Source: Thermophilibacter mediterraneus
GTDB lineage: Bacteria > Actinomycetota > Coriobacteriia > Coriobacteriales > Atopobiaceae
Assembly (NCBI RefSeq): GCF_900119385.1
Contig: NZ_FPKO01000009.1
Coordinates: 953,405 to 1,017,404 of the forward strand
DNA length: 64,000 nt
Reading direction: 5' to 3'
Shown: in pieces, positions 43,332 to 48,050 of the stretch
Numbering within the stretch: the stretch's first letter is position 1
Layout of the letters: each line of letters opens with the position of its first letter
Notes under the pieces: generated by a model
Told to the model about the DNA's origin: nothing
Seen by the model: only the letters and a program-made list of their open reading frames with translations
Database searches by the model: none
Translations under genes and position numbers: made by a program

Positions 43332-43361
43332 GCGGCGCTTCCGTGGCGTAGCACTCGATTC

Positions 43362-43391
43362 GGCGGCGGGCCTTCGGGTCCGCCGCCTTTT
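43362..43391 (+). terminator. rho-independent terminator of ettA
   Basis: GGCGGCGGGCC-TTCG-GGTCCGCCGCC stem-loop followed by TTTT, 30 bp after the stop. Confidence 0.9.
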
Positions 43392-43395
43392 CATA

Positions 43396-44159
43396 AGGGT
43401 CTTCAACCCTATGCCGCGCATCCTTCGCGCGGCATGGAAATCCACCCGCTCAGCGGGTGGACCCCACCTTTGCTGCGCAACAAAGCACCCTCCCCCTCTA
43501 GCATGGCGATTGCTCGGGTCGCCAGCCCCGAGGGGAAGGCGGTTGCCGTGGCCCAGGAGGCCAACAGCCTCGCCCGCACGAAGCGGCTCCGCGAGTACCA
43601 CATCGTGTTCGCGCCAAAGCATGGGCGAAAGGCCATCTACAACGAGTGCCGCAGGGACCTGGCGCAGATCTTTCGGGACCTGTGCCGCTGGAAGGGGGTC
43701 GAGATAACAGGGGGGCACCTGATGCCCGACCACGCGCGCATGCCGGCCGGCATCCCGCCCAAGACCGGCGTGTCGAGCCTCGTGGGCTGCCTTAAGGGGA
43801 AGAGCTCGCTGCTCATGTTCGACCGGCACGCGAACCTCAGGCACGAGTTCGGGAACAGGAAGTTCTGGGCGGAGGGCCACTGCGTCCCCGCCGTCGGCCC
43901 CGACGAGGCGACGATCGCGAAGCACGTCCGGGAGCAGGGGCGCGCCGACATCGCCCAGGACAGGCTGAGCGCCAGGGAGTACGAGGACCCCTTCGCGAGG
44001 GGGCCGCAGGGTAGGTAGGCGCGCCGCCGGTTCGACCGGCCCGTCACGAGCCGAGGGGCTATCGGGCATGGACGCCAGTTCAGGCCAGGGGCTCGGGCCC
44101 CTGGCCTGGGACCCTTAGGGTTATACCCTAAGAGCAGACCACCCGCTTTGCGGGTGGTT
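43396..44159 (+). mobile_element. degenerate IS200/IS605-type element
   Basis: Both ends show the subterminal hairpins of this family. Left: AGGGT-CTTCA-ACCCT (43397-43410), ATGCCGCGC/GCGCGGCAT (43411-43435) and TCCACCCGC-TCA-GCGGGTGGA. Right: CTTAGGGT-TAT-ACCCTAAG (44113-44131) and ACCACCCGC-TTT-GCGGGTGGT (44139-44159). A single tnpA-like ORF lies between; there is no tnpB. Exact cleavage sites are not determined. Confidence 0.8.
43548..44018 (+). pseudogene. IS200-type TnpA lacking HUH and Tyr catalytic residues
   Basis: 156 residues from a GTG with GGGAAGG upstream; an earlier ATG would start inside the left-end hairpin. 'YHIVFAPKHGRKAIYNECRR', 'LKGKSSLLMFDRHANL' and 'FGNRKFW' are classic IS200 TnpA. 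The HUH motif, normally PDHVHM, reads 'PDHARM' (His62, Arg64). The nucleophilic Tyr in the YIRxQ helix reads 'KHVREQ' (His126). The frame is intact, but transposition should be impossible without help. Changes from the family consensus are nearly all of A to G or T to C type. Confidence 0.85.
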
Positions 44160-44369
44160 CTGATTTGGGTTTTGCCGCAACAGAGCGGCTCTTTGGGACG
44201 CCCTGGCATGTTGTGTGCAGTTTTTTGGCGACCCCTTCAGTAGCGGGCAGGGATCCAGCTGTGAAAGTGCTGGTAGAGACGTCGAACAAAATGACGATAC
44301 TCGGGCCCTCTTCCAAAAACTGCCTACAAATCCAATTTCTCCCTCACTCAGCCTTCTTACTGAGTCTAT

Positions 44370-44421
44370 TTCGATAACTGTAGAATCACTCTTGATATAT
44401 AATTCGATATCTATAGAATCA
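44370..44421 (+). promoter_or_regulatory. promoter with two ArsR-type operator repeats
   Basis: TTCGATAACTGTAGAATCA (44370-44388) and TTCGATATCTATAGAATCA (44403-44421) are 19-bp direct repeats, 33 bp apart. Each is an imperfect palindrome (TTCGATAT/CTATAGAA). A consensus -10 TATAAT at 44398-44403 lies between them, so bound repressor would block RNA polymerase. Probably the target of the ArsR-type protein encoded at 44802. The remaining part of 44160-44454 has no gene. Confidence 0.75.
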
Positions 44422-44454
44422 GATTCAGCAGGACAGCGTGAGAAAGGAAAAGAG

Positions 44455-44802
44455 ATGGGCGAGTCCCTGAGGGAGTGGCTCGACGACCGTGTGGGGCGCA
44501 GTGCGGGTTGCGAGCGGGCGCTGCGCGAGGACGGTCGCGACGACGAGGCGACGCTTGAGCGCATTCGCGGAAACGTCTTTGACATCGCGCGCACCGTGCT
44601 CGGCGTGGCGGCGCGCCAGGACGAGGACGGCGCCGCCCGTGCGTTTTTCACCGGGCGGATGGGTCGGCTGCACGGCGAGTGGAGCGCTGCGCGGGAGCGC
44701 GCGCTCGAGCACGGTGACGAGGGGAGCGCCCACGTGGAGCAGGTCAAGCTCGAGGTCCTCTCCGAGGTGCTCCGCGCGACGGACGACCTGTGGGTCGTCT
44801 GA
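44455..44802 (+). CDS. uncharacterised 115-aa protein in ArsR operon
   Basis: ATG behind AAAGGAAAAG. All-helical, charged, cytoplasmic; 'DDEATLERIRGNVFDIARTV' and 'GRMGRLHGEWSAARERALEH' suggest a helical bundle. No family recognised. Its TGA overlaps the ATG of the regulator gene, so the two are translated together; it may be a co-regulator or the regulated function. Confidence 0.75.
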   Translation: MGESLREWLDDRVGRSAGCERALREDGRDDEATLERIRGNVFDIARTVLGVAARQDEDGAARAFFTGRMGRLHGEWSAARERALEHGDEGSAHVEQVKLEVLSEVLRATDDLWVV

Positions 44803-45377
44803 TGGGCGAGGACGAGCTTGTCGCGCTGCTCAAGTGCCTGGCGGATCGCTCCCGCCTGCGCATCGTCCGCGCGCTCGCGGCCGAGGACCTCTACGTCGAG
44901 CTGCTCTCCGAGCGCCTTGCGCTGGCGCCGTCCACGGTGTCGTTTCACCTGAGGAAGCTTGCGGAGGTGGGGATCGTGAGCTCGTACCGCACCCAGTACT
45001 ACGTGATGTATGAGCTCAACCGGGCGAAGCTCGATCACAATCTGCTCGCGCTCGTGAGCGCGCCTGTTGGCGACGAGGTCGAGCAGGAGCGCCGCGAGGA
45101 GGCCTATCGACAGCGCGTGATTGACTCGTTCTTCGAGTACGGGCGCCTTACGGCCATCCCGCGCCAGCGCAAGAAGAAGCGTATCGTGCTCGAAGTCGCC
45201 GCCGAGCACTTCGAGCCAGGGCGCCTCTATGTGGAGCGCGAGGTCAACGACGTACTCTCGGCCATTAACGATGACGTGTGCACCCTCCGGCGAGATCTCG
45301 TGGGGGAGGGGCTGCTGGCGCGCGACGCCCGGGGCTACTGGCGCCCAGTACCCGGCCCGGACGAGCCGCTATCCTGA
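44802..45377 (+). CDS. ArsR-type HTH regulator with DUF2087 domain
   Basis: 191 residues from the ATG in the TGATG overlap. Winged helix at 1-75 ('LADRSRLRIVRALAAED', 'LALAPSTVSFHLRKLAEVGI'). C-terminal DUF2087 at about 105-183 ('FFEYGRLTAIPRQRKKKRIV', 'YVEREVNDVLSAINDDVCTL'). No Cys metal site of the classic ArsR kind is seen in the recognition helix. Likely an autorepressor acting at the repeats near 44370-44421. The sensed signal is unknown. Confidence 0.88.
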   Translation: MGEDELVALLKCLADRSRLRIVRALAAEDLYVELLSERLALAPSTVSFHLRKLAEVGIVSSYRTQYYVMYELNRAKLDHNLLALVSAPVGDEVEQERREEAYRQRVIDSFFEYGRLTAIPRQRKKKRIVLEVAAEHFEPGRLYVEREVNDVLSAINDDVCTLRRDLVGEGLLARDARGYWRPVPGPDEPLS

Positions 45378-45490
45378 CGCCGCACGTGGGCACTGCCCGT
45401 ACTTCCGGAGCGCGCTTTGCAACGCATTTGTCGCCTGACAATTTCCTGAAACATTCTCGTCATAGAACGTCCACAACCAGTTAGAATTAA

Positions 45491-46689: not shown

Positions 46690-48050
46690 TGTCTCTATGG
46701 TTTTGTCAACCCCTCGACTCCTCAAATCGAGCCATGCTGACGCCGGCCCCCCGAGGGGCCTAGCCCCCTGAATGTCGGCCCCCGCTAGCCCTCCCGGTAC
46801 GGGACCCTGTCGCGCATCACCGCAAAGATGACCTTCAGGCGCTTGCGGGCAACCGCCTTGAGGGCCTTGTTGTGACGCATGCCCCGGGCCCGGCACTCGG
46901 CGTAGTACCTCCCGAAGCGCCCCTTGGTGCCCACGAGGGAGGTGCAGGAGTAGACGAGCAGGTTCTTGAGGGCCCTGTTGCCGCCCCGAGACGGAGAGGT
47001 CGAGTTGAGGGACGTGCCCGACTGCCTGTTGCAGGGCGCGAGCCCCGTGTAGGCGGCGAGCTCGTCGTGGCTCCGGAACAGCGACGCGTCCACGAGCGTC
47101 ACGAGCGCCGCCGCGGTCCTGGGCCCCACGCCCGGCACCGTGAGCAGCGCCTCGTACGTCTCGTCGCCGGCCAGCGAGTCGGAGATGAGCCCGTCGAGCC
47201 TCGCCGCCTCGCCGCCGTCGGAGAGAATCCTGGCGGCCAGGGAGCGCACGAGCTCGGACTCCGCGGCGAGCTCGGGCCTGCCGGAGGACGCCGACGCGAC
47301 CGCCGCGGCCCAGAGGCGGTCGGAGGCTTCCCTGCGCGCGCCGCAGGAGCGCTCGGCGACCGACCGGAACCTCCTGAGCCCGGCGGCCCTGATGCCGAAG
47401 GCGCCGCCGAGCTCAGCGAGGACGGCGAGTTGCCAGCGGCTCGACGGGTCGACGGCGGCCTCGAAGGCGGGGTCCGCCTCGAGGAGCACCGCGCGCAGCC
47501 TGTTGGCCGCCTTGGTGCGCGAGCGCACCGCGAAGTCGCGCTGCGAGGCGAGCATCCTGAGCGCGGTCGTGGCGGGCGCCTCCTCGGCGACCTCGCGCAA
47601 CGTCCAGGGCATCCCCATCGCCGTGCGGGCGATGACCTCGGCGTCGATCTCGTCGGTCTTCGCCGTCGCCGGGAACATGTCGCGGGCCTTCTTCATGGCG
47701 ATCCCCGGCAGGTAGAACACCGGGTTGCCCGCGGCCCTGGCGCGGGCGACGACGAGCGCGCCGATGTTCCTCTTCTGGTCGACCACGACCCTGGCCCCCG
47801 GCCCGGCGTCGGCGAGCGCGCGGTCGATCTCGCCCGGGCGGTTGGCGACCTCCCTGTTGAACAGCGCGGCGCCGTCCGGGGCCACGGCGCAGGCGCGGTG
47901 GGACGACTTCCCGACGTCGAAGCCGACGACCGCCGCCGAGGCCTTCTCCTTCTTTCCCATGGTGTATCCTTTCCGCAAGTTGGCTGACCGCGGACCGCGG
48001 GCGCGACAACCACATTACGGAGCCGTGGGCACCCCCCGGCATGTCTCTAT
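46690..48050 (-). mobile_element. IS110-family insertion sequence (boundaries tentative)
   Basis: An IS110-type transposase is flanked by the same 9-mer TGTCTCTAT in direct orientation at 46690-46698 and 48042-48050. Such a short direct repeat without long terminal inverted repeats suits IS110, which recombines at a small core. Only about 80-90 non-coding bases then remain on each side, less than a typical bridge-RNA end. The structured GC-rich DNA at 48050-48175, upstream of the transposase, may therefore also belong to the element. Confidence 0.6.
46785..47960 (-). CDS. IS110-family transposase (DEDD recombinase)
   Basis: 391 residues; AAAGGATACACC before the ATG at 47960. N-terminal RuvC-like domain: Asp15 in 'GFDVGKSS', 'VVVDQKRNIGAL' where the usual Glu is Asp61, and 'KTDEIDAEVIA' (Asp103, Asp106). 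C-terminal transposase_20 domain with 'LLTVPGVGPRTAAALVTLV', 'AYTGLAPCNRQSGTSL' and 'GGNRALKNLL', which contains the catalytic Ser region. The ORF is complete and looks active. RNA-guided in characterised relatives (IS621). Confidence 0.93.
   Translation of the reverse strand: MGKKEKASAAVVGFDVGKSSHRACAVAPDGAALFNREVANRPGEIDRALADAGPGARVVVDQKRNIGALVVARARAAGNPVFYLPGIAMKKARDMFPATAKTDEIDAEVIARTAMGMPWTLREVAEEAPATTALRMLASQRDFAVRSRTKAANRLRAVLLEADPAFEAAVDPSSRWQLAVLAELGGAFGIRAAGLRRFRSVAERSCGARREASDRLWAAAVASASSGRPELAAESELVRSLAARILSDGGEAARLDGLISDSLAGDETYEALLTVPGVGPRTAAALVTLVDASLFRSHDELAAYTGLAPCNRQSGTSLNSTSPSRGGNRALKNLLVYSCTSLVGTKGRFGRYYAECRARGMRHNKALKAVARKRLKVIFAVMRDRVPYREG

Follow-up and report, generated by a model that had tools for sequence, protein, structure and literature searches.

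Members of the IS200 group of the IS200/IS605 family carry TnpA only, with one short open reading frame for a Y1_Tnp protein, hairpins at the element ends, and insertion on the 3' side of a short target that is not duplicated; the element described here is alike in each of these respects. IS200 transposes as single-stranded DNA. Hypermutation directed at mobile elements is known from fungi, where repeat-induced point mutation (RIP) introduces one-way C.G>T.A transitions on both strands and kills the elements. In adenosine or adenine deaminase editing (ADAR-type, RADAR), A is read as G. Our search of the open-licence literature found no report of element-directed hypermutation in bacteria, or there of the coupled pattern reported below, and nothing on point about the mutation spectrum and mismatch repair of Coriobacteriia. 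Bacterial mutation has been argued to be AT-biased (Hershberg and Petrov, PMC2936535), 86% of the rpoB changes in a mutS-deleted B. subtilis were AT-GC (PMC3774996), and mutS lines of Vibrio headed only to about 48% GC (PMC5854121).

The IS200 insertion and its inactive transposase

We analysed a 64,000-nucleotide stretch of the Thermophilibacter mediterraneus genome (the window), in which the insertion has the following parts.

43390-43394, plus strand: target TTCAT, abutting the insertion on its 5' side (from the alignment with the G021 empty site)
43395-44164, plus strand: IS200-type insertion sequence, 770 bp, missing at the same place in G021
43396-43461, plus strand: left-end hairpins (43396-43410, 43411-43435, 43441-43461), DNA fold z −8.07
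43548-44018, plus strand: tnpA relic, 156 codons, open, catalytic residues lost (profile matches, alignment)
43731-43739, plus strand: former HUH motif, now H62-A63-R64 (alignment to relatives and solved structures)
43923-43925, plus strand: former catalytic Tyr codon, now His, residue 126 (alignment to relatives and solved structures)
44114-44162, plus strand: right-end hairpins (44114-44132, 44135-44162), DNA fold z −5.45

The tnpA frame begins with GTG and encodes 156 amino acids. It matched the Pfam profile Y1_Tnp (5e-23) and the NCBIfam IS200 profile NF033573 (1.9e-26), which identifies the product as a Y1 (HUH) transposase, and it was the sole match in its own 2.37-Mb genome, which thus holds one copy at present. 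The sister genome G021 had both flanks, 94–95% identical, and an empty site in place of the IS200. Because the same two flanks occur there without the element, we set the bounds of the insertion at 43395 and 44164. The alignment also placed the insertion directly 3' of TTCAT without a target-site duplication, and a TTCA(T)-like sequence precedes many other IS200 copies. Subterminal hairpins with a strong fold were found at both ends, and those of the left end are similar in other copies. The sequence-only reading of this DNA had described the end hairpins as intact, and both do fold strongly; but the stems are almost entirely G.C and could hardly be damaged by A.T>G.C changes. That reading had likewise pointed out that the frame stays open, which is so over all 156 codons, but neither A>G nor T>C can turn a sense codon into a stop, and the open frame is therefore no sign of selection.

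The insertion lies inside an island (43340-45420) that is flanked by ettA and a lactate/malate dehydrogenase gene and is made up of an ArsR/DUF2087 regulator and a small ORF. Among 140 family genomes, the part of the island downstream of the IS was complete only in G000 and G021, with a partial match in ten others. In genome G131, ettA was matched as two overlapping pieces in different frames (L266/L267), which represents a frameshift or an assembly error. The genome has two further copies related to an IS110-type transposase at 46785-47978 of the window; the changes of this transposase were mostly C<->G (70/122), with no excess of A.T>G.C.

Compared with relatives that keep the motifs, H62-V63-H64 of TnpA has become H-A-R, and Tyr-126 has become His (Y126H). 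Relatives such as L008 read PDHVHM, KYIREQ, FMGYLKG and GYYVSTVG where the window copy reads PDHARM, KHVREQ, LVGCLKG and GHCVPAVG, so that all four departures named by the sequence-only reading were recovered. The H-x-H and Tyr positions align with those of the solved TnpA structures 2ec2, 2f4f and 2a6m, and we take them to be the HUH motif and the catalytic Tyr, respectively. We concluded that TnpA is inactivated, as had been proposed. Profile, hairpins and a target without duplication all fit the IS200 group, and the catalytic motifs fail; the element is a dead member of the group by descent.

Both catalytic motifs were present in 30 of 53 copies. A copy with both motifs, L013 from Collinsella aerofaciens, shows the GHCV change seen in several relics, in which four bases separate the T>C from the A>G, and L009, a relative keeping Tyr, reads PDRVHM in place of PDHVHM. 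By nucleotide identity of the ORF, the nearest copies were L006 (89.6%), L048 (89.2%) and L005 (88.3%), which are separate insertions because similarity stops at the element ends. The altered residues do not mark a whole clade: HAR was common to the window copy, L005 and L014, and KHV to the window copy and L006. These last two have the dead Tyr codon in common, and their flanks differ.

Substitution spectra of the element and its surroundings

Our main reference for the spectrum was the set of sites at which L006, L048 and L005 agree (209 A/T and 413 G/C, ORF and non-coding sites summed). Against this consensus, the window copy showed 18 A>G and 11 T>C, that is, 29 transitions affecting 14% of the A/T sites; the 413 G/C sites showed five changes since the split from the nearest copies (1 C>T, 2 G>C, and two transversions to A/T, 1 C>A and 1 G>T). 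The transition direction of 29 to 1 was highly significant (binomial p 4e-13), and A.T>G.C changes fell both in the ORF (21/141 A/T sites) and in non-coding DNA (8/68). When all 12 substitution types were counted at the 373 ORF sites agreed by L006, L008 and L010, A>G (16) and T>C (11) dominated, followed by G>C (2), and the other nine types were zero. The types were thus far from balanced, and the near-exclusive A.T>G.C direction claimed from the sequence alone was confirmed.

A second reference comprised the 347 sites at which seven close relatives were unanimous; Tyr is kept by all seven and HVH by six. Here we counted 31 A.T>G.C transitions, 2 G.C>A.T transitions, no A.T>C.G transversion and 7 C/G swaps. 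The two strands were hit alike, with A>G at 18/90 A and T>C at 13/58 T. Because A>G and T>C were equally frequent per target, single-strand adenine deamination was ruled out. The earlier suggestion of an adenine-deamination-like process gained support from these data in a modified form only: it fails for a single strand, and what fits is a coupled two-strand process, often acting on the T-N(1-2)-A pairs described below.

Six other relics were each compared with their own pair of agreeing relatives (coding and non-coding sites summed). The ratios of A.T>G.C to G.C>A.T transitions were 50:8 in L014, 26:7 in L016, 19:7 in L017, 17:3 in L048, 9:5 in L006 and 6:2 in L005. With the window copy included, the seven relics gave 156:33 transitions, together with 5 A.T>C.G against 34 G/C>A/T transversions, of which the window copy contributed 2. 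Because of the 34 transversions across the seven rows, we regard the other relics as less clean than the window copy and as decayed by further routes too.

The surrounding DNA behaved differently. Between the flanks of the insertion and G021, 46 transitions were A/T in G021 and G/C here, and 42 were the opposite (two flanks summed, unpolarised). The aligned 20 kb of the element's own genome had 109 private changes, including 12 A.T>G.C and 28 G.C>A.T transitions. Transitions in intergenic DNA of the genus were about equal per site (A.T>G.C 71/3038, G.C>A.T 121/5935), with a transition to transversion ratio at A/T sites of 71:17, a comparison that constraint on the remaining A/T sites could bias. 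At four-fold sites of the genus, transitions from A/T to GC (52/509) were faster per site than those from G/C (272/13059); part of the A.T>G.C direction may therefore be owed to the host. In eight host genes within the 20 kb surrounding the element, GC content at third codon positions was 84–97%. Four-fold sites of the 20-kb genus stretches (L203-L222) also showed an odd synonymous spectrum, with 592 C<->G transversions and 417 changes to A/T. G/C sites in the flanks differed at 111/2109 between the two genomes (summed, about half per lineage); because only 5/413 had changed in the element, the time since the split of the element must be short.

Decayed copies from the same class had mixed spectra. 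Written as A.T>G.C transitions/W>S transversions/G.C>A.T transitions/S>W transversions, these were 26/13/16/11 in L289, 15/5/23/10 in L291, 22/4/38/9 in L292, 17/12/29/15 in L294 and 13/5/11/7 in L298. L289 has kept H-x-H and lost Tyr (KCIREQ), and the other four are frame-broken or partial. L289 and L298 come from G282, the same genome as the biased relic L048. The burst of A.T>G.C changes was thus confined to the element relative to its flanks, to the 20 kb of its own genome and to the 20-kb stretches of relatives, and the changes that inactivated it differ from those seen in the flanks, in host DNA and among the other decayed class members.

Mismatch repair genes were sought in the 140 family genomes. 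MutS (MutS_I) and the MutL domain were each found in 0/140. NucS_C matches occurred in 24/140, all partial (best 74/124 positions, 7 over the cut-off), so that none of the 140 had a convincing NucS, and the genome of the window had no match. A published survey reports that all analysed Coriobacteriia are without NucS and MutS-MutL (PMC5290159).

Coupled T>C and A>G changes

Many of the changes came in pairs of fixed order, a T>C followed, after two or three bases, by an A>G. This coupling was noticed by eye in the site table before it was tested; the spacing of 2–3 is thus post hoc, and the p-values are uncorrected. The eight pairs of the window copy, none assigned to a strand, are as follows.

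43590-43593, unstranded: T>C / A>G pair, spacing 3; C..G also in L285
43620-43623, unstranded: T>C / A>G pair, spacing 3; C..G also in L014 and L017
43708-43711, unstranded: T>C / A>G pair, spacing 3; C..G absent from the other 53 copies
43765-43767, unstranded: T>C / A>G pair, spacing 2; C..G also in L007, L014 and L016
43779-43782, unstranded: T>C / A>G pair, spacing 3; C..G absent from the other 53 copies
43887-43890, unstranded: T>C / A>G pair, spacing 3; C..G also in L014
43972-43975, unstranded: T>C / A>G pair, spacing 3; C..G absent from the other 53 copies
44094-44096, unstranded: T>C / A>G pair outside the ORF, spacing 2; C..G absent from the other 53 copies

These eight, out of 33 available T..A pairs at spacing 2–3, compare with 0.61 expected, and 0 of 4000 permutations reached as many. 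They account for 16 of the 29 changes, as 5'-T-N(1-2)-A-3' to C-N(1-2)-G, and 13 are unpaired. The AT, AA and TT orders gave 0/99 pairs against 1.85 expected. Within T..A pairs of the window copy, both bases had changed in 11, T only in 3, A only in 2 and neither in 14 (p 0.0004), and the same test of joint change in the six other relics gave p from 0.00008 to 0.02. Codons do not explain the pairing, because the pair at 44094/44096 is outside the ORF. At adjacent TA mostly one side had changed, with both sides changed 0 times in the window copy and once each in L048 and L014.

The numbers of T..A pairs also exceeded expectation in L014 (11 vs 1.97), L016 (6 vs 0.52), L006 (4 vs 0.13), L005 (3 vs 0.18) and L017 (2 vs 0.23); L048 showed little pairing (1 vs 0.26, p 0.23, not significant). 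Other orders were raised as well in L017 (3 vs 0.76, p 0.04) and perhaps in L014 (9 vs 5.3, p 0.08), which in the comparison across 54 sequences had 5 T..A and 7 other-order pairs. That set of class copies holds repeats (L048 is the same as L293, L010 resembles L268, and L082 resembles its kin). Pooled over the seven relics, T..A pairs numbered 21 against 3.7 expected at spacing 2, 34 against 4.6 at spacing 3 and 7 against 2.9 at spacing 4; all other pooled spacings up to 12 were at most about twice expectation, the largest being TT at 3 (7 vs 3.7), TT at 9 (6 vs 2.8) and AT at 10 (6 vs 2.9). L007, in which both motifs are kept, had 2 pairs among 10 hits. Two copies outside the table in which the pattern was found, L090 and L298, had 1 pair each (0.03 and 0.12 expected). 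Inside the table, L084, of the same sub-lineage, ran mostly in the opposite direction (27 G.C>A.T vs 10 A.T>G.C), yet held 2 pairs against 0.12 expected. Of the decayed copies with mixed spectra, L289, L291 and L292 had none and L294, like L298, had one.

Many pairs were found at identical places in several relics, and gene conversion may inflate this recurrence. For the eight pairs of the window copy, the C..G state was absent from all other 53 copies in four cases, present in a copy with both motifs in two (L285 and L007, one each), and present only in relics in two. When only changes found in a single relic were counted, pairing persisted in the window copy (3 pairs in 16 hits, p 0.0004) and L017 (2 in 13, p 0.006); L014 had 2 in 24 (p 0.07), and the remaining four relics had no pair. 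Such private hits were also in excess at AT spacing 3 (3 vs 0.5) and AT spacing 1 (2 vs 0.3).

Controls gave little pairing. The flanks compared with the empty-site genome had 0 coupled pairs, and in the 20-kb stretches of seven relatives 411 A.T>G.C transitions gave 3 pairs against 1.2 expected (other orders 8 vs 3.5). Outside Coriobacteriia, 900 hits in 110 IS200 copies gave 9 pairs against 10.0 expected (other orders 59 vs 38.5); these copies came from 141 sequences including the window copy, of which 112 had enough neighbours. Repeat loci (L001-L003, L074-L076, L078, L079, L081, L085-L087, L102) and the partial (L091, L093) or distant (L089, L092, L100) sequences were left out.

No strong nearest-neighbour motif of the deaminase kind was found (TAC was hit in 12/14); enrichment was seen mainly for T at positions −2 to −4 relative to the target A. 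Repair directed at CpG or TpG was rejected, as CA/TG sites hit in any relic (22/48) were not enriched over others (59/106); in L017 alone the counts were 0/48 and 20/106. Compensation within an RNA structure was also rejected, with 0 hit-hit base pairs in the window copy against 0.76 expected.

Candidate explanations and known systems

The reading that we favour, though tentatively and short of even confidence, is adenine hypermutation confined to the element, acting on both strands at a distance of 2–3 bp, in a lineage from which MutS, MutL and a convincing NucS are missing. The comparison with flanks and relatives shows that a recently inserted IS200 copy was killed by a burst of A.T>G.C transitions limited to the element. 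This burst would have acted on double-stranded DNA, in events often changing two adenines, one per strand, 2–3 bp apart. The two-strand, single-event reading is inferred from the T..A pair, which holds one adenine per strand, and from the lack of enrichment of other orders; T-N(1-2)-A is the same on both strands, so that each pair has an adenine on each, offset by 2–3 bp. If one event converted the two adenines to a base that is read as G, only the T..A order would result. The simplest chemistry would be conversion of adenine to hypoxanthine or to another base pairing with C, and the lesions may become fixed uncorrected as the repair genes are missing.

It is also possible, if rather less probable, that the relics descend from a few old hypermutated haplotypes moved by a transposase in trans, with gene conversion shuffling short tracts so that neighbouring changes are linked. 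Several pairs do reappear in relics on separate branches, pairs are more frequent among recurrent hits than among private ones, the window copy and L006 combine one dead Tyr codon with different flanks, and L285 and L007, with both motifs, hold one of the window pairs each. Linkage alone, however, gives no preference for T..A over AT, AA or TT at equal spacing; moreover, four of the eight pairs occur in none of the other 53 copies, and how the pairs first arose is not explained. Recombination bias, which the sequence-only reading had also raised, may play a part. We hold a similarly modest belief in error-prone copying of the single-stranded transposition intermediate without mismatch repair, in which one polymerase pass inserts C across from an A and, 2–3 bases later, G across from a T. 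Confinement to the element would follow naturally, and the missing mismatch-repair genes agree with this, but the fixed order of the pair is not predicted. Copies in multicopy genomes, which can be clean, also speak against it: in G089, L082 and L099 encode the same protein in nearly identical DNA, and the four copies in G236 score equally against the query.

Ordinary neutral decay in a GC-rich lineage, with mutation biased to A.T>G.C for want of mismatch repair, was at first our leading explanation and was dropped as a host-wide process after the intergenic, flank and decayed-copy comparisons; we now consider it improbable. The absence of MutS, MutL and convincing NucS, the B. subtilis spectrum, the GC-rich third positions and the lean of four-fold sites to GC all favour it. 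It is at odds with the near-equal intergenic rates and balanced flanks, with the mixed spectra of the five decayed copies, with the limited GC content reached by the Vibrio strains and with the coupled pairs, which it does not predict. The sequence-only reading had also raised domestication, and selection for, e.g., a new protein or RNA could be read from the open frame and intact hairpins. We consider this very improbable and set it aside: stops cannot arise by A>G or T>C, the catalytic residues are gone, change is similarly dense outside the ORF, compensating base pairs are missing, the nearest copies lie in different flanks, and the insertion uses a target usual for IS200, the sister genome having a clean empty site.

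Returning to adenine hypermutation, a bolder form of it would be a genome-defence process of these bacteria, RIP-like but of opposite chemistry, that recognises IS200 DNA, edits both strands 2–3 bp apart in one event and kills the transposase, leaving T-N(1-2)-A to C-N(1-2)-G as its mark. We offer this as speculation that is unlikely to hold in full. A mark of this kind, with A-to-G changes coupled across both strands, would indicate a new DNA-editing activity or a two-strand lesion of a new type, and T..A pairs at spacing 2–3 are easily counted in any genome collection. The pattern also bears on mutation in GC-rich bacteria without mismatch repair.

Set beside the systems introduced above, the window copy departs from the IS200 group in having lost HUH and Tyr through one substitution class. 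It resembles mismatch-repair-deficient (mutS deletion) spectra in that transitions dominate, A.T>G.C is prominent and the host is without the repair genes, but those spectra are genome-wide and not known for coupling, whereas here flanks and sibling relics are ordinary. As in ADAR-type or RADAR editing, A is read as G and both strands are hit; the substrate here is DNA instead of RNA, and a strong nearest-neighbour motif was not found. Fungal RIP is alike in its one-way transitions on both strands, in the killing of a mobile element and in confinement to that element within the DNA compared; the present case differs in its A.T>G.C direction, its bacterial host and its coupled T..A pairs.
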